A stretch of DNA of 64,000 nucleotides from Colwellia demingiae. Its GTDB lineage: Bacteria > Pseudomonadota > Gammaproteobacteria > Enterobacterales > Alteromonadaceae. The stretch's first letter is position 1. Every line of letters begins with the position of its first letter. The DNA lies in assembly GCF_007954275.1 (NCBI RefSeq), contig NZ_VOLT01000009.1, positions 124,001 to 188,000 of the forward strand, given 5' to 3'. The position numbers and the translations under genes were made by a program. Positions 56,572 to 64,000 of the stretch are shown here, piece by piece. The notes below the pieces were generated by a model. The model worked only from the letters and a program-made list of their open reading frames with translations. It ran no database searches and was not told where the DNA came from.

Positions 56572-57837
56572 TTAAGCCGCTGTTTTGTTACTACCGGTAT
56601 TTTTTGCTTTATACAGGGCTTTATTTGCACGGGTAATTAAATCATTAAGATCTTCATCATACATTTGTGCGACAGCGGAGCTACAGGTTATTTTAATTTC
56701 ATTTGGCCAAGTGGCTCCCTGTATTTTTGCTCTGATTTTATCCGCAACATCAATCGCTTGAGATAACTCAGTGTCTGGGCATACTAATAAAAATTCTTCT
56801 GAGTTCCATCGGGCTACCGTATCACTAGAGCGGCAGGTATTATCAACTTCATTTACAAATTGCTGTAGAATTTTATCTGCTATTTTATAACCGTAATTTG
56901 GATAAAGATCTTCAAAATAATCGATGTTAAGGAAGATAACACTTAATTTTTGTAGATCAGTGGGCGCTAATTGATCAAAACATTTTCGTAATCCAATACG
57001 ATTTAATGCGCCTGTCAGAGGGCAACTCATAGTACCGAACTCAATGGTTTGACTCGCTTGTTCAGGTATTTCAATTTCCACTTCTTTAGCTGGCACTAAT
57101 CGTCTAATGACATAGCCCAGCGCTATACTCCACAACATAATTAACACGGCAATAAGTACTGTAGTACCAATATACTTGCCTTTTAATTCAATGCGTTCAA
57201 CGGTTAACTCATACATCCCTTGTTGCACTTGCACAGTTGGTGTTATGACAATGGAATAAATATTTGAAAAATCAGTACCACCATTCTTTAGCGTTAAATT
57301 ATGACTGTTATTCCACCATTGAGGGATAGAGAAATCAGCTAATTTCAGCCAAATAGGGTTAGGAACGTATGCTTCTAAATACTCTAAACTATTATGTTTT
57401 AATATTATTTCGTTTCCTTTATTTGAGTAATCGGTATTAAAGTTACGTAACTCAATACGAGTACCCGGTTGTGTTGGGTGATTATGATTAATCCATAAGC
57501 CGATTTGCTCATAATTAGATAAGTCTAAACCAGTAAAGGGAGCTTGTTTGCTTAAATCTTGTAGATTTATAATTAACTCACAATACGGTTGAGTTAGATG
57601 AGATTTTGTTATTTGGCAGGTAAATTCAAGACCATGATTGGTTTTTACTACTTTTGCAACTGATGCACCTAGCACTGCACGATCATCCACAACCTTAATG
57701 TCTGCCGCATTTAAATTGATTACTTTATGCTTGTCTATGTTGAGAAAAAGTAATGATAAAATGAGTAAAGATATAAGTATCAGTGAAATAGTGGCATAAA
57801 GTTCTTTGCTTTTTTTAGTATTTTTTTTTGTTTGCAT
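56572..57837 (-). CDS. Membrane GGDEF protein with degenerate active site
   Basis: A 421-residue signalling protein: transmembrane segment at 14-33, a periplasmic sensor region of about 190 residues with a beta-sandwich look (LDLSNYEQIGLWINHNHPTQ), a second transmembrane segment at about 228-250, then a GGDEF domain. The GGDEF signature reads NSEEF (345-349), losing both glycines, and the metal loop is LNIDYFED rather than D-x-D. The inhibitory site RSSD, five residues before NSEEF, is intact. Such a domain is more likely a c-di-GMP sensor, or weakly active, than a normal diguanylate cyclase. Single gene. Confidence 0.88.
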   Translation of the reverse strand: MQTKKNTKKSKELYATISLILISLLILSLLFLNIDKHKVINLNAADIKVVDDRAVLGASVAKVVKTNHGLEFTCQITKSHLTQPYCELIINLQDLSKQAPFTGLDLSNYEQIGLWINHNHPTQPGTRIELRNFNTDYSNKGNEIILKHNSLEYLEAYVPNPIWLKLADFSIPQWWNNSHNLTLKNGGTDFSNIYSIVITPTVQVQQGMYELTVERIELKGKYIGTTVLIAVLIMLWSIALGYVIRRLVPAKEVEIEIPEQASQTIEFGTMSCPLTGALNRIGLRKCFDQLAPTDLQKLSVIFLNIDYFEDLYPNYGYKIADKILQQFVNEVDNTCRSSDTVARWNSEEFLLVCPDTELSQAIDVADKIRAKIQGATWPNEIKITCSSAVAQMYDEDLNDLITRANKALYKAKNTGSNKTAA

Positions 57838-58969
57838 GGAAAAACTATTCCTTAACCTAGGTGAACGTGTTCAATAGTTTAAATCCCAAAAGGATAAAAT
57901 TAAGATAAATTTTTATTTGGTGAAAATTGAACATAAAAACAGTACTACTTTAAAAGTAATACAGCATTAGTAATAATACCAATGTCTTCAGCCTATCGCT
58001 AATTTAGCGATGAGCAATTGATTTACATCAAAAGTATACAGTATTTAAAGTAGTGGCATATTTTTACCCGTTACTATTATTTCATCACAATGTTTTGAAT
58101 TGAAAAAGTTCAAGCACTCTGAAACAGGCATCTTGATTAACGGGTTTAAAGGTAAAAAGACAAACACAAACACAAAGAGAGCTGGCATTGAACAAACGCT
58201 ATTCCAGTAACTCGTTTTCAACGAAAAAAGTAAATCAACGCAATACAGGGTTAATTTAACCAAAAACTTATTGGCCTGATTGATGCTTTATTTGTACGAT
58301 TTACATTCAATAAAAGTTCTGTAATTATCTGTTTATATTAAATATATGGAACAACTTGCTGGTCCGATCAGTGTGTTCGTATTTTAAAATCTTACCTTTA
58401 CTGAATAATCCAATCAATTGCAAAAATGCACTTTTAGACTAAACTTTTTGTAAATTAGTAATAAATATTTACTTTGCCAATGTATGTCGCTGTTTGAGGG
58501 GTAAATATGAATTAATTTACATACTTCTGTGGGTATTATTATGAGTCAATATTTTCTCATCACCGGTAATCAATCAGCAACATCAGTGGCACCAATTATG
58601 CCGCAGAGAAAAACCAACCTCTTAATCGTTTTTTATCATTTCTTGCGGCTTCAATTCAATATATCGTCGCCAATTGGCTTATATCTTTATAAATCAAACA
58701 ACTATTCCCTAGCGATTTTTAATATTTGCTTATCACTTTTTAGTTGTTATCGATTTTTATATCTCTGGTTTGTTATCTCCTTTTCACCGTTTAAATGTGT
58801 AAATGTATTCACAAAGCTATCAATACGACGAGATCTCTACCTAGAGACAGAGCAATATCTAGTTGATTATGGCTAGTTTTTGGTGGGTTACTAAACACGC
58901 GAAAGATAGCAGTTACATTTTGGTTATAAATCAATATCCATACATTTCAGGTACAAAAGGGAAAGTATT
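57838..58969. other. 1.1 kb region before the PqqD/ATP-grasp cluster
   Basis: No gene that I trust. A 17-base palindrome ATCGCTAATTTAGCGAT lies at 57995-58011. A weak 115-codon open frame at 58529-58876 encodes a hydrophobic Phe/Tyr-rich sequence and is listed separately. The promoter of the downstream cluster should lie in the last 150 bases. A precursor peptide gene, if the cluster needs one, could be hidden here, but I could not point to one. Confidence 0.45.
58529..58876 (+). CDS. Doubtful small hydrophobic open reading frame
   Basis: 115 codons from 58529 (an inner ATG at 58541 is equally possible): SQYFLITGNQSATSVAPIMP, then a hydrophobic stretch FNICLSLFSCYRFLYLWFVI. It is close to and on the same strand as the PqqD-like gene. 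Composition is not protein-like in places and there is no convincing ribosome binding site. It could be chance, or a small membrane or precursor peptide gene; I lean to chance. Confidence 0.25.
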   Translation: MGIIMSQYFLITGNQSATSVAPIMPQRKTNLLIVFYHFLRLQFNISSPIGLYLYKSNNYSLAIFNICLSLFSCYRFLYLWFVISFSPFKCVNVFTKLSIRRDLYLETEQYLVDYG

Positions 58970-59278
58970 ATGAATAGTTTTACTAATAGAGAACCGATTA
59001 CTATTCCTCAACAATTTGCGCTGCGCTCTTGGGTTTCTCTAGAACCAGGATTAGAGGAAAATGAGTGGGTATTGATAGATAACCGCAGCGGAGCTATTTG
59101 TACCTGTAATGACAGTGCAGGCGTATTATTGGTCGCCTTACAAAAAGGCACTACCTGCGACCAACTGGCTGATGCTCTTGCTAGTCGCTTCGATGTGTCA
59201 GTGACAGAAGCCAGACAAGATGCACTACTTTTCATTCAACAACTCAGTGGCACAGGATTTGTTTATGAAAACTTCTAA
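58970..59278 (+). CDS. PqqD-family protein (peptide recognition-like)
   Basis: A 102-residue protein of the PqqD fold, which in RiPP pathways grips the leader of a precursor peptide. The pattern VLIDNRSGAICTCNDSAGVL, then CDQLADALASRFDVSVTEAR and LLFIQQLSGTGFVYENF, is the family's three-strand, three-helix layout. AAGGGAAAG precedes the ATG. Its last 14 bases overlap the ATP-grasp gene, so the two proteins are made together. It may deliver a peptide or carrier to that ligase. No precursor peptide gene is evident. GC content looks higher than in the preceding genes. Confidence 0.8.
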   Translation: MNSFTNREPITIPQQFALRSWVSLEPGLEENEWVLIDNRSGAICTCNDSAGVLLVALQKGTTCDQLADALASRFDVSVTEARQDALLFIQQLSGTGFVYENF

Positions 59279-61469
59279 TACTCGAGTCGCCATTACAGGG
59301 TTTGGTGGTCTTGATATTCCACATGCCGGAGCCAGTGTTGCTCGTGCATTACGCGCAGGTTGGCAGGGACCACTTATTATTGATGCTCTGGTTGATGATT
59401 CGGCTATGACAGGGGCTTGGCAACCCGGAGTGGTTGATACAGTGACAAGAATTCAAAGTCCACTTAAAGGAGATGAAGCGTTTTATTTAAGTTTAATCAA
59501 TTCACAAAAAAAATTAGGATTTACCGCCTTTATTCCGTGTTTAGAACAAGATATTGCTGCTACAGCTAGGCTAGCAGAGCGACTACATAAAAATGGCATA
59601 AAAACACTTGTGCCCAATGCCGATAAAATTGCCCAATTGAGTCCACTTACTTTAGCTTCTTATCTACATCAACATCATATTGCGTATCCCCACAGTTTAA
59701 TTGCTCACCATCTGCATGAAGTATCCCATTATGCCGATCATCTTGGCTATCCTGTGTTAGTCAAAGGAGCAGAATTGGAATTAATTGCCCACAACGCCGA
59801 ACAGGTTGTACGTTTTTCATCTGCCGTGCTTGAGCGAGATCGACGCTCAGGAGTACTATTACAGGCGCGCATTGCGGGTGAAGCTTATTCACTGGTTTGT
59901 CTTAATAATAAAAACGGTGATCGCGTTGAAAACCTCTCATGTAGAAAACTGGCTATAAATAGCAATGGTCATGCGGTTTGTAGCAGTATCATTGATAGCC
60001 CAGAATTAGAGGCGCAAGGACTGGAAATTATCAAAAAGCTAGGTGCTCAGGGACCTATCACTTTAGATTTGATCCACCCAACAGGCGGCTCAATTTACTT
60101 TTTAGAAGGCGTTAAATCCTGTCTTCCTGATTGGTGTATGCTCAGCCATTGGGCCAATAAAAATTTAGCTGTAGAACTACTGAAATTATTAACTGAACCT
60201 GAGATTAATAAAACGACATCCCCTTCAAATCATTCCAGTGACGCCCCATTGTTAGTTCGTAGTATTACAGAAGCCGTAGTGCGACTCGATGACATGCAAC
60301 ATTTGGATCGGCATGGCCACATAGATGTGACAGAAATGACTAACGGTCAATCTCGAAGTAATCATGACGATAAACCACTAGCTGTTAGAGAGGGACTGCG
60401 TGTCGCGGTTACTGGAACCAGTAGCTTTGATCTTGTTAATGCGGGTATTGGCGTTGCCAGAGCGTTACGCAGTGCTTCTGGCGACTTGCATTTAATTGGC
60501 CTATGTTACGGCACCTTCGATTCTGGGGCATATAACAAAGAGTTGTTTGATGTTTGTTTTCAATTACCGATAACAGAAAGTGAAAGTACGTTATTCGAAC
60601 GTCTCAAAAAAATTATAAAAATGCAGGCCATTGATGTATTGATCCCCTGTTTGGATGGCGAAATACCGTTTTTTATTAAATTTGCCGATGAGCTAAAAAA
60701 ATTGGGCGTTCATACTTTATTACCTAACCTAGATAGCTTTGAAAAACGGAGTAAAACACAGCTATTTAGTGGCACTTATAAAGCGGATCAGCAGGGCTTT
60801 ATGATCCCCGAAACCATTAGTGCCCGTAATGAAGATGAAGTATTAGCAGCTGTTAAAAAAGTTGGTTTACCAGCGGTGGTAAAAGGACCTATCTCTTTTT
60901 GTGTATCAGTCATGGATGAAAGTCAGGCAAAAGCTGCATGGCACACACTCTATTATGATGGAATGAAAGAAGTATTGATTCAGCCAATGATTAGCGGACC
61001 AAGTTTTGCAGTGGCTACCGTTTGTAATCATCAACACGAACCGCTAACTATGCTGACGGTAAAAAAATTAAGTTTATGTCCCAGAGGCAGTACTTGGCGA
61101 GCCATGCGTTTACCACAAGTAGAATTAGAAGCGGCTTTTGCCCGCTTTTTAAAAGAAATCAAATGGGTTGGCCCGGTAGAGGGGGAATTTATTAGAGACG
61201 AGATATTAGACCGTTTTTATCTTATCGAGATCAATCCACGTTTTACTGGCTGGATCTATTACTCTGCCACGCTAGGATCGAATCATCCTCAACAGGTTGT
61301 CCATACTGCACTAGGTAAAGAAATCACCCCCGAACCAGATAAAACAGACCTTGTATTTGTAAGAAGTACTACTGAATTACGTTTACAGCCTTATCAGTTA
61401 GCCTCTTTTTCGACCAAGGGATATCTACACCATAATCGAATTGCTCCAGACCAAATTAAGGAAAATTGA
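59265..61469 (+). CDS. CarB-like protein with two tandem ATP-grasp halves
   Basis: A 734-residue ligase made of two homologous halves, each opening with a Rossmann-like sequence (VAITGFGGLDIPHAGASVAR at about 8; VAVTGTSSFDLVNAGIGVAR at about 380), like carbamoyl phosphate synthetase large chain. The second half keeps the metal-binding ending FYLIEINPRFTGW. The first half has YFLEGVKSCLPDW there instead of E-x-N, so only the C-terminal half is likely catalytic. ATP-grasp enzymes join a carboxylate to an amine. The ATG at 59265 has AGGA before it and overlaps the PqqD-like gene by 14 bases. Substrate unknown. Confidence 0.85.
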   Translation: MKTSNTRVAITGFGGLDIPHAGASVARALRAGWQGPLIIDALVDDSAMTGAWQPGVVDTVTRIQSPLKGDEAFYLSLINSQKKLGFTAFIPCLEQDIAATARLAERLHKNGIKTLVPNADKIAQLSPLTLASYLHQHHIAYPHSLIAHHLHEVSHYADHLGYPVLVKGAELELIAHNAEQVVRFSSAVLERDRRSGVLLQARIAGEAYSLVCLNNKNGDRVENLSCRKLAINSNGHAVCSSIIDSPELEAQGLEIIKKLGAQGPITLDLIHPTGGSIYFLEGVKSCLPDWCMLSHWANKNLAVELLKLLTEPEINKTTSPSNHSSDAPLLVRSITEAVVRLDDMQHLDRHGHIDVTEMTNGQSRSNHDDKPLAVREGLRVAVTGTSSFDLVNAGIGVARALRSASGDLHLIGLCYGTFDSGAYNKELFDVCFQLPITESESTLFERLKKIIKMQAIDVLIPCLDGEIPFFIKFADELKKLGVHTLLPNLDSFEKRSKTQLFSGTYKADQQGFMIPETISARNEDEVLAAVKKVGLPAVVKGPISFCVSVMDESQAKAAWHTLYYDGMKEVLIQPMISGPSFAVATVCNHQHEPLTMLTVKKLSLCPRGSTWRAMRLPQVELEAAFARFLKEIKWVGPVEGEFIRDEILDRFYLIEINPRFTGWIYYSATLGSNHPQQVVHTALGKEITPEPDKTDLVFVRSTTELRLQPYQLASFSTKGYLHHNRIAPDQIKEN

Positions 61470-61473
61470 TATT

Positions 61474-62859
61474 ATGACAATTGCACTTAAACCTTACCAT
61501 CGGCCAGTTATAGAGGTTTTGCCATTTTTGGCTTTGGAGAAACACCAACTACATAATATAACGGTAGCAGCAGATGAACCCTTAACTCTAGATACTGTTG
61601 AATTATTGCAAAGGTTTGGCTCTCCACTTTATGTGGTGTCAGAGCAAAGATTACGTCAAGATTTTAAAAATTTTAAACGCAGCTTTAGTGATGAACACGT
61701 TAATACCAAAGTGGCATATTCCATAAAAACTAATTACCTACCAGCGGTTTGCGCCATTCTTCGTCAAGAAGGTGCCCAGGCTGAAGTAGTTTCTGGCATG
61801 GAATATGAGTTGGCACGCACCTTGGGTATCCCTGGCAAAGATATAATATTTAATGGCCCCCATAAAACTCAATCAGAACTTAAACTGGCACTTAGCGAGG
61901 GGGCGCTGGTCAACATTGATAACTTCAATGAATTGGAACTTATAGAACGGCTTTCTGAAGAACTTTTCACCCCTGCTAGAGTCGCTATTCGGGTAAATTT
62001 TCGTTATGGCACCAACCCATGGACCAAGTTCGGGTTTAACAATGAAAATGGTGAAAGTTTAACTGCGCTAAAGAAAATTTCCCGTAATACAAAACTTCAA
62101 TTTGAAGGTTTCCACTGCCATGTGGGTACCTTTGTTTTGGCCCATGAACTTTACGCTAATGCTGTCGAAAAGCTCATAGAACTAGCAAAACAAGCACGAG
62201 AAATAGGGCTTAACCCGACGAGTATAGATATTGGCGGCGGCTTTCCTTCGGCCAATACTCTTAGACCTGAGTATGACTTACCCGGTGGTAGTCAACGGAC
62301 AAATAATGATTATCTGCTACCTTATGCGGAACATATTTTTGGGCAATTACGTAAACATAGCGAGCTATTTGGAAATAACCCAACATTGATTCTAGAACCT
62401 GGACGAGCGATAGTCGACGCCTCGACACAACTTATAAGTACCGTCATTGCTAAGAAAGAGATAGCTGGAGGTCGCAACGCGGTTATTATTGATGCAGGGG
62501 TTAACTTAGTTCCTACCGTTTGTTACTACAACCATCAAATCAAGACAGTTGCAGCAACAAAAAGTGAGGAGAGAGGGTTATTAAAGCCAGTCGATATCTT
62601 CGGCCCTTTGTGTATGCAAAGTGATAGATTGCGTGAGCAAATATTGATGCCAGCATTAAATGTCGGAGATCACCTCAGTATTGGTAATGTTGGCGCATAT
62701 TGTCACACTCAATCGAATCAGTTTATTCAACCCAGACCGGCGACCATATTATTAGGTGAACAGGGGCCAGAACTTATCCGACGTGCCGAGACTTACCAAG
62801 ATATATTTGCGCTTGATCTATTACCGGGCCGACTGCGTGATGATAAATGCCAATTTTAA
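61474..62859 (+). CDS. LysA-like PLP-dependent decarboxylase (fold type III)
   Basis: A 461-residue decarboxylase of the diaminopimelate/ornithine group. The PLP lysine is in VAYSIKTNYLPAVC, with HCHVGT, the glycine loop DIGGGFPS, EPGRAIVDAS and FGPLCMQSDRL with the active-site Cys. NVGAYCHTQSNQFIQPRPA matches the end block of LysA. A longer N-terminus (about 45 residues) precedes the barrel. The ATG at 61474 lies four bases after the ATP-grasp stop. Here it probably decarboxylates an amino acid or ligated intermediate of the cluster rather than making lysine. Carboxynorspermidine decarboxylase is another option. Confidence 0.88.
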   Translation: MTIALKPYHRPVIEVLPFLALEKHQLHNITVAADEPLTLDTVELLQRFGSPLYVVSEQRLRQDFKNFKRSFSDEHVNTKVAYSIKTNYLPAVCAILRQEGAQAEVVSGMEYELARTLGIPGKDIIFNGPHKTQSELKLALSEGALVNIDNFNELELIERLSEELFTPARVAIRVNFRYGTNPWTKFGFNNENGESLTALKKISRNTKLQFEGFHCHVGTFVLAHELYANAVEKLIELAKQAREIGLNPTSIDIGGGFPSANTLRPEYDLPGGSQRTNNDYLLPYAEHIFGQLRKHSELFGNNPTLILEPGRAIVDASTQLISTVIAKKEIAGGRNAVIIDAGVNLVPTVCYYNHQIKTVAATKSEERGLLKPVDIFGPLCMQSDRLREQILMPALNVGDHLSIGNVGAYCHTQSNQFIQPRPATILLGEQGPELIRRAETYQDIFALDLLPGRLRDDKCQF

Positions 62860-64000
62860 AAATCATTTTACCGTTCAATGGAGGTCATTCGCCCAACTTG
62901 CCTTTTTAGACCGGCAAACGTCTGGTCTATTAATTTTTTTAGCCATTGCCCTGGTTTCGGTGTGGTCGGCTTTTGCCGCAATAGTTGGTGTGTTAATAAA
63001 CAATAGTTTAAGCCTCATCATTAAAGACTACACTGTGCAAGAATGGAAACTTGGCATTGCAGGTTATAACGGCGCAATAGTTGGCATGTATTGGGGCGAT
63101 TCTATATTTAGCATCAAGGGATTGTGTTTGTTTCTTGTTACACTGCTACTTTGCCTACTGATTGAATTTCGATTACGCGCCTTACTCATTCCAAGACAAC
63201 TGCCAATATTATCTCTTCCAGCAATGGCCAGTATTTTGCTCATTGTATTAACTATTTCATTGTTTTCGTTAGATACAAATCATCTTTTATTTGAAGGGGC
63301 AGCTGAGCCTATTTTTCAGACCTATAGTAGAGAAATTGCAATTATTCTCGTGGTGTCTGCTATGGCCTATCAATATCCGCTAGCCACTTTACAAACCCTT
63401 GGTATCAGCCTAACAGGTGGCCTCATAGCTCAATGGATAACGGGACTAAGCTTATATGTTTTGGTCGACTTATGGGCAATTAACTTGGCTCTGGCTTACT
63501 TCTCGATAAAAACGCTATTTTTAAAGCATTATCGCTTAGCTACCTTAGCGGCAACATTTAATACCCTGTTGGCATGGGTTATTTGGTATTTTTGGTTAAT
63601 CACAGGATTAGAGCAGTTAAGCGCGCCTCTCTTAATCCCCTTCATTATGAGCAGCTTGATAACATTAAGTTTGTTCAAACGATATAAAAACCATAACCTA
63701 CTTCAAAGCGAGCTTTGGAGAACATTTCAGCTCCTGCTAACCAATCGCTTAAGGGCTAAACAATGTGTGGCTATTACGGGTTCAGGAATACGCAAAGGAA
63801 CACTGCCAGATTATCCCTCTGGACAATGGTTAGATCCCAAGGTGCCAATCACTAGTTATACTCTGGCTGAATTTAAAACGTCGAAACGTTGCCGATATCT
63901 CTACTGGAAAGCATCATTTGACTACTACCAGCAAGCATTAGCAATTAATAAAAATAACATTGATAAACAACTCGATTATTTGTTGAATCACTATTTATCG
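62840..64000 (+). CDS. Urea-transporter-like membrane domain fused to a sirtuin-like domain (3' truncated)
   Basis: Open from ATG 62840 to the right edge, 387 codons; the end lies beyond the window. The start overlaps the decarboxylase gene by 20 bases, and no stronger ribosome binding site exists for an alternative. Residues 1-280 are a membrane domain with the twofold repeat of urea transporters: LGIAGYNGAIVGM (71-83) with LPILSLPAM, and LVDLWAINLALAYF with LSAPLLIPF in the second half. From about 305, CVAITGSGIRKGTLPDY and SYTLAEFKTSKRCRYLYW resemble the NAD-binding start of Sir2 proteins (TGAGIS...GIPDFR). Transport of a small amide or amine product is a plausible role. Confidence 0.72.
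   Translation, partial: MINANFKNHFTVQWRSFAQLAFLDRQTSGLLIFLAIALVSVWSAFAAIVGVLINNSLSLIIKDYTVQEWKLGIAGYNGAIVGMYWGDSIFSIKGLCLFLVTLLLCLLIEFRLRALLIPRQLPILSLPAMASILLIVLTISLFSLDTNHLLFEGAAEPIFQTYSREIAIILVVSAMAYQYPLATLQTLGISLTGGLIAQWITGLSLYVLVDLWAINLALAYFSIKTLFLKHYRLATLAATFNTLLAWVIWYFWLITGLEQLSAPLLIPFIMSSLITLSLFKRYKNHNLLQSELWRTFQLLLTNRLRAKQCVAITGSGIRKGTLPDYPSGQWLDPKVPITSYTLAEFKTSKRCRYLYWKASFDYYQQALAINKNNIDKQLDYLLNHYLS

Follow-up and report, generated by a model that had tools for sequence, protein, structure and literature searches.

The 64,000-nucleotide stretch of Colwellia demingiae DNA analyzed here (as a whole referred to as the window) ends on the right with a biosynthetic operon that is real and conserved and seems not to have been described before. 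Its core consists of genes for a small PqqD-family protein, an ATP-grasp ligase and a pyridoxal phosphate (PLP)-dependent decarboxylase of the FigC type. We predict, at about even chances, that the ligase forms an amide and that the decarboxylase subsequently acts on the conjugate, with the PqqD-family protein docking the substrate and a urea transporter (UT)-like protein taking over transport. The genes of the operon are:

58970–59278, forward strand: PqqD-family small protein of 102 amino acids (PF05402)
59265–61469, forward strand: tandem ATP-grasp ligase, ATG at 59265, 14-base overlap with the PqqD gene
61474–62859, forward strand: PLP-dependent decarboxylase with alanine-racemase fold, FigC/FslC type, ATG at 61474, 4-base gap after the ATP-grasp gene
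62840–64000 and onward to L002:8490 (window-equivalent 64489), forward strand: UT-Sir2 fusion protein of 549 amino acids, 20-base overlap with the decarboxylase gene
L002:8478–9377, same direction, beyond the window: DLH-family hydrolase (dienelactone-hydrolase-like), 13-base overlap with the UT-Sir2 gene

Operon structure and conservation

A preliminary description of this region had reported four co-directional genes with spacings of 14, 4 and 20 bases, which is exact, all coordinates being confirmed, and had proposed a single operon running past the window. Both proposals were borne out: the end of the UT-Sir2 gene and the DLH gene lie to the right of the window, and the overlaps and short gaps speak for one transcriptional unit. 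As the DLH gene overlaps the UT-Sir2 gene, the operon comprises five genes and not four. The DLH hydrolase exhibits an N-terminal hydrophobic stretch (by eye from the sequence), and the gene after it, a 2-oxoglutarate (2OG)-Fe(II) oxygenase according to Pfam, points in the opposite direction. Pfam bit scores exceeded the cut-offs (in parentheses) for PqqD with 48.8 (23.4), ATP-grasp_3 with 36 (23.2), Orn_Arg_deC_N with 140.6 (23.4) and, in the fusion protein, UT with 56.3 (25) and SIR2 (PF02146) with 37.7 (24).

In a sample of the phylum, the ATP-grasp ligase was matched at E 1e-10 in 37 of 398 genomes including its own. The core of PqqD, ATP-grasp and PLP decarboxylase was present in 36 of the 397 others, which spread over ten families and include none of the same class. 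These 36 genomes hold 37 distant places, and the DNA around each of them was scored with profiles, which were made from 14 to 20 of the same 37 places (the decarboxylase profile from 17 plus the four Colwellia sequences), so that matches of those places arise by construction. A decarboxylase gene directly follows the ATP-grasp gene in all 37 places, and a PqqD gene precedes it in 35, the other two lying at contig ends with 101 and 26 bases upstream. As the same gene order recurs in distant genomes, the cluster is more than a chance grouping. The search for this order elsewhere, proposed in the preliminary description, thus revealed wide co-occurrence of the core, and the pairing of an ATP-grasp ligase with a decarboxylase noticed there is supported. 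A UT-M23 profile match follows the core in 31 of the 37 places, some of them cut by a contig end. Three of the six remaining contigs end within 1.2 kb, and one that ends early (L052) carries a UT-M23 gene and a piece of the decarboxylase at its other end. Three places have room and yet no UT match (genomes G583, G486 and G546; loci L042, L056 and L065). In 24 of the 37 places a protein of about 300 amino acids is encoded near the core with a TPR protein beside it. It had no Pfam match, and from its sequence we have the impression that it is perhaps an outer-membrane beta-barrel. At one distant locus, the operon is preceded by two genes, one with a FecR domain and one TPR/SlipAM-like (L036:10736–13176, reverse strand), and members of their two sequence clusters also occur in L038 and L041.

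The core triple was also found on one phage contig, and two of its enzymes as a fusion on a plasmid. On the viral contig IMGVR_UViG_3300047160_011268, genes for PqqD, ATP-grasp and decarboxylase overlap head to tail (L085:3444–5922), and no UT, M23, barrel or TPR match was obtained in the 9.6 kb searched around this triple. The triple lies near the replication genes of the contig, and its neighbors match PHROGs for a DNA polymerase, a nucleoside deoxyribosyltransferase, an exonuclease, a DNA methyltransferase and an endonuclease, and farther on a primase/helicase, a virion structural protein and a major head protein follow, which identifies the contig as phage. The three proteins of the triple themselves had no PHROG match at E 1e-3, and a TerL search of the record found nothing. 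When viral contigs were scanned with the alignment of the decarboxylase, no hit was obtained, and two later scans yielded this contig only. Among annotated phage records there was no ATP-grasp match, while the decarboxylase matched eleven at 25–28% identity (two annotated as lysA, one as ornithine/lysine decarboxylase, eight without annotation). A plasmid of Streptomyces zaomyceticus (NZ_CP108525.1, L086:5998–8274) encodes a single 758-amino-acid protein in which an ATP-grasp part is joined to the decarboxylase. Here, the decarboxylase scored 31.8 bits (cut-off 23.4) and ATPgrasp_Ter 24.2, below its cut-off of 29.1. The ATP-grasp part is backed by tblastn (30.5% identity, E 2e-28) and by the kept motif described below. 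Two genes past this fusion, a fatty acid desaturase is encoded.

The constant order of the three core genes in at least ten families outside the class of C. demingiae, in a phage and, as a fusion, on an actinobacterial plasmid is strong evidence of an unassigned metabolite pathway. The earlier statement that this is not a described pathway agrees with our literature search, in which no description of such an operon was found among the matches listed, with most subscription papers and preprints outside its scope, so that an earlier description is possible. Published surveys of ATP-grasp operons would be the likeliest place for it.

The two core enzymes

The best match of the decarboxylase among solved structures is the N-citrylornithine decarboxylase 7kh2, and its profile scored 319 bits to N-citrylornithine decarboxylase compared to 234 bits to LysA. 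Among known relatives, FigC scored 195.4 bits and BtrK 102.6 bits. The NCBIfam model of N-citrylornithine decarboxylase (NF041039) gave 229.6 bits, below its cut-off of 500. The preliminary description had called the enzyme LysA-like, but this identity has to be rejected: the LysA model TIGR01048 gave 252.2 bits and thereby missed its cut-off of 297.9, the specificity helix carries Thr and aromatic residues without the Arg for the distal carboxylate of diaminopimelate (DAP), and the residue next to the Cys is Met instead of an acidic one.

Residues were compared over 38 loci, namely 32 of the 37 distant places, three of the four Colwellia loci, one further gammaproteobacterial genome (G1120, see below), the phage and the Streptomyces fusion. 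Both G493 places as well as G607 and G613 were dropped as truncated, G553 as its decarboxylase lies in two frames, and L005 was dropped as well. The FigC residues PLP-binding Lys63, catalytic Cys354 and Met355 are kept in all 38 loci, Thr327 in 37, Tyr331 in 36 and Arg290 in 37. The citrate-contacting His357 and Arg387 are found in none of them, and Asn389, a possible further contact, in three. The FigC paper names residues that replace free-amino-acid contacts, and describes the non-DAP members of the clade as likelier to act in specialized metabolites than in polyamine synthesis (PMC7857480). On the basis of these residues, we read the decarboxylase as one predicted to act on an amide-linked conjugate, though not on a citryl one.

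The preliminary description had further proposed a tandem ATP-grasp protein. Two halves are indeed present, but the residue comparison shows the N-terminal one (about 59265–60340) to be degenerate, while the C-terminal one (about 60390–61469) keeps the catalytic residues checked. Lys170, Glu269, Glu271, Glu284, Asn286 and Arg288 (L037 numbering) are kept in 38/38 C-terminal halves and single-domain relatives, all of which thus exhibit the ATP-binding Lys and the metal-binding Glu-x-Asn-x-Arg motif. Of these residues, the N-terminal halves of Colwellia keep Lys170 and lose the rest, and that of G1120 has lost some. The best family matches are PRK12767 (carbamoyl-phosphate-synthase-like) and ATPgrasp_Ter.

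Proposed pathway and alternative explanations

The order of reactions, the role of the PqqD-family protein and the direction of transport are predictions in the following. The intact ATP-grasp half would activate a carboxylate with ATP and link it via an amide to an amino acid (or link an amino acid to a partner). The decarboxylase would then strip the alpha-carboxylate from this conjugate, giving an acylated amine. The PqqD-family protein may dock the substrate or a peptide for the ligase, and the UT-like domain might serve to pass a precursor or the product through the inner membrane. The sirtuin-like domain of Colwellia would be a binding or regulatory part at most, and the DLH hydrolase would there take the place held by the M23 domain in other clades. 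Gene order speaks for this pathway, the ligase being followed by the decarboxylase in 37 of 37 distant places and preceded by PqqD in 35, as do the Streptomyces fusion of the two enzymes, the triple on the phage contig, the closeness of the decarboxylase to N-citrylornithine decarboxylase and the kept residues of both enzymes. Tree distances of ATP-grasp and decarboxylase, too, are correlated over 38 loci (r 0.887; maximum of 1000 permutations 0.406).

Several observations weigh against this pathway. At E 1e-10, all solved structures matched by the ligase are carbamoyl-phosphate synthases or, in one case, bear that name, and ATP-grasp enzymes can form other bonds than amides. FigC Thr330 is kept in none of the 38 loci and replaced by Trp or Tyr in all of them, so that the pocket differs from that of FigC. 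The Streptomyces fusion is very divergent, with Glu and Arg at the positions of Thr327 and Tyr331, and no PqqD gene was seen adjoining it. The correlation of the two trees is partly owing to shared descent. Finally, AlphaFold2 models reached a mean pLDDT of only 42 for PqqD (three sequences) and 34 for UT-Sir2 (two sequences) and were not used.

A tentative and rather improbable alternative is that the PqqD-family protein serves as a recognition element for a ribosomally synthesized and post-translationally modified peptide (RiPP), or as a stand-in for the carrier BtrI, with the ligase extending the bound chain and the decarboxylase trimming it. PqqD is almost as constant as the two enzymes, which would fit, although no carrier site is known on PqqD. 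BtrK, of the same decarboxylase clade, is described as acting on a glutamyl group bound to a carrier, and MccE as acting on an intermediate of microcin C (PMC7857480). In addition, two features lie just upstream of the Colwellia operon:

about 58400–58545, forward strand: conserved block, possibly promoter and 5′ leader, from an alignment of the four Colwellia genomes
58541–58876, forward strand: weak candidate small gene, open reading frame (ORF) of 111 amino acids, ending 93 bases before the PqqD gene

Speaking for this alternative, the ORF is open in all four Colwellia genomes (in one of them with an in-frame shortening of 57 bases), but it shows little coding constraint: its ratio of nonsynonymous to synonymous substitutions (dN/dS) is 0.44–0.72, compared to 0.03–0.07 for PqqD. 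Its substitutions are spread evenly over the three codon positions (36, 27 and 31, against 7, 3 and 35 in PqqD), and for this reason it stays a weak candidate. Of 441 small ORFs in the vicinity of the operon at 24 loci (L051–L065 excluded), none emerged as a widely conserved precursor peptide; their matches link members of the same genus, save one 14-residue match between two genera of one family. An Rfam search over 57700–64000 gave a single match of 27.2 bits (gathering score 100) and none in the conserved block. No carrier-protein family appeared among the matches of the PqqD protein, which scored 15.6 bits with TIGR03859, the PqqD of pyrroloquinoline quinone (PQQ) synthesis (cut-off 46). 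Nine of 18 PqqD proteins (L037:8974–9792 and eight similar ones) have an additional, TetR-sized part at the N-terminus, identified as TetR_N in the one tested, which suggests sensing or regulation. An even bolder idea, which we regard as unlikely, is that of a new mobile biosynthetic module shared by bacteria and a phage: a peptide or carrier would be presented by PqqD, extended at its end with an amino acid and then decarboxylated, and the amine-capped product, of a new class, would leave via a re-purposed urea channel.

It is also conceivable, though quite doubtful, that the decarboxylase acts first on a free amino acid and the ligase then couples the resulting amine. In its favor, E-64 clusters, as described in PMC12568646, carry a decarboxylase proposed as amine supplier, the removal of which left the products unchanged. 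The residues by which its relatives bind free ornithine, arginine or DAP are missing from the family studied here, which contains the FigC-type Met, and this argues against such an order.

The UT-like membrane protein and its fused domains

The preliminary description had named a UT-like domain as possible mover of the product. The UT domain lies above its Pfam cut-off, and together with the carbamoyl-phosphate synthases among the solved ligase relatives this would fit a nitrogen metabolism in which urea is imported by UT and consumed by a carbamoyl-phosphate-synthase-like ATP-grasp enzyme. Such a pathway is nevertheless very improbable. While PF03253 is matched, the urea transporter model TIGR03441 gave 35.2 bits, far below its cut-off of 274.6, and residues which presumably line the pore of UT-B and dvUT are altered: the UT-B Q63-equivalent is kept in the window protein, the T172-equivalent is Ser, and in the one M23-type protein aligned (L029) the Gln and Glu of dvUT are replaced. 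Urea transport by this protein is not supported. Neither the 9.6 kb around the phage triple nor the three roomy distant places contain a UT match, the decarboxylase has no evident place in urea metabolism, and the same genome possesses a separate UT. This full-length urea transporter (L074, G000:C25:285319–286128) scores 204.9 bits.

The proposed fusion of UT and sirtuin was seen only in the four Colwellia genomes; elsewhere UT is joined to M23 or to nothing. All 15 UT-M23 proteins aligned carry an M23 peptidase domain instead of a sirtuin, and both M23-type proteins tested match PF03253 over its whole length. H359, D368, H444, H477 and H479 are invariant in all 15, but the HxxxD spacing usual for M23 is not kept, which leaves the first zinc ligand unsettled. 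Charge and hydropathy are compatible with cytoplasmic N- and C-termini of the UT domain, in line with the topology of known UTs, and this would place M23 and the pseudo-sirtuin inside the cell, which is odd for M23. Haloarchaeal proteins are among the plasmid matches of the M23 part (best 15 of 41). As haloarchaea are devoid of peptidoglycan, a different target may be cut or bound by this M23 branch. A further UT-like domain, fused to TPR repeats, is encoded downstream of one distant operon (L036:1900–3819, reverse strand).

In the Colwellia sirtuin domain, the zinc-binding Cys4 motifs CLDC and CQHC are kept in all four genomes. The SIRT5 motif EIHGS has become ECYGS (catalytic His to Tyr) and TQNID has become TETVD (QN to ET), and an active sirtuin was therefore rejected. 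A deacylase dependent on nicotinamide adenine dinucleotide, or a defense system, built around this domain is extremely improbable: SIR2 scores 37.7 bits, but the replacements occur in 4/4 genomes, a sirtuin part is absent from the UT of G1120, and a PADLOC search returned nothing for PqqD, ATP-grasp, decarboxylase, UT-Sir2 and one UT-M23 protein, while DLH matched DruL alone, at 13.4 bits.

Spread in Colwellia and possible gain of the operon by transfer

The tandem ATP-grasp gene is present in four of 39 Colwellia genomes, and the complete five-gene set occurs in the Colwellia loci L002, L004, L005 and L049. The operon-less site was inspected in six (L079–L084) of the 35 Colwellia genomes lacking the operon, with gene names assigned by eye. 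In all six, the space from the diguanylate-cyclase-like gene to the 2OG oxygenase gene is occupied by FdhD-like and large molybdopterin-oxidoreductase-like genes, and in five also by an FAD oxidoreductase gene. As relatives carry other genes at the same place, the operon occupies a site of gene replacement, which fits a gain by transfer but does not show its direction. The preliminary description had likewise taken a higher GC content as a hint of transfer, and signs of transfer are supported. The GC content of PqqD, ATP-grasp and decarboxylase each lies above all 34 background ORFs of the window, whereas three of these exceed UT-Sir2 and nine exceed DLH. At third codon positions, UT-Sir2 and DLH lie above all 34, ATP-grasp is exceeded by eight, and PqqD and the decarboxylase by three each. 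The rise is thus real, yet modest and uneven across the genes.

Within the order, the UT-Sir2 protein occurs in one of 394 genomes, the source genome alone. Within the class, it matched at E 1e-6 in eight of 369 genomes, namely its own, G1120 (UT part) and six with the sirtuin part alone. G1120, one of five genomes of a second gammaproteobacterial family, contains PqqD and the start of a tandem ATP-grasp gene at a contig end (L078), and on another contig (L073) the rest of the ATP-grasp gene followed by decarboxylase, UT without sirtuin part, and DLH. In the simplest reading, PqqD, tandem ATP-grasp, decarboxylase, UT and DLH form the older set, and the Colwellia lineage acquired the sirtuin domain later. 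As G1120 is the single outgroup, a loss of the sirtuin domain there is a possible alternative.

Comparison with known systems

The enzyme families of the operon are known; what is apparently new is this variant of a ligase-then-decarboxylase pathway. Across the genomes, a urea-transporter fold is seen joined to either of two soluble domains that are unrelated to each other, one of them a sirtuin fold that lacks catalytic residues. Labels such as diaminopimelate decarboxylase, carbamoyl-phosphate synthase and urea transporter, which automatic annotation may give to these genes, would mislead a metabolic reconstruction.

With PqqD proteins and RiPP recognition elements, the small protein shares the PF05402 domain above cut-off, but the five operon genes include neither a PQQ gene nor one for a radical SAM protein, and the precursor search at 24 loci found no counterpart. 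Known urea transporters (UT/Yut) are alike in PF03253 and differ in the pore residues and in the fusion to M23 or pseudo-sirtuin. PRK12767 and ATPgrasp_Ter are closest to the ligase, yet its NCBIfam scores all stay below the cut-offs.

In butirosin biosynthesis, BtrJ is an ATP-grasp enzyme. That system likewise combines a ligase with a small protein and with a decarboxylase from the same clade, which work on a bound intermediate (for BtrK and BtrI as described in PMC7857480). The small protein BtrI is, however, a carrier protein instead of a PqqD, and BtrK scores 102.6 bits compared to 195.4 bits for FigC. Similar in its logic is the FigA/FigC (FslA/FslC) rhizoferrin pathway of Francisella, in which a ligase forms an amide with an amino acid and a PLP decarboxylase with alanine-racemase fold then takes the carboxylate off the conjugate (PMC7857480), this decarboxylase being the closest solved relative of the operon enzyme. 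The two systems differ in that the ligase there is described as an NIS synthetase and not an ATP-grasp enzyme (PMC7857480), that PqqD and UT are no part of the rhizoferrin pathway, and that its citrate contacts His357 and Arg387 have no counterpart at any of the 38 loci.

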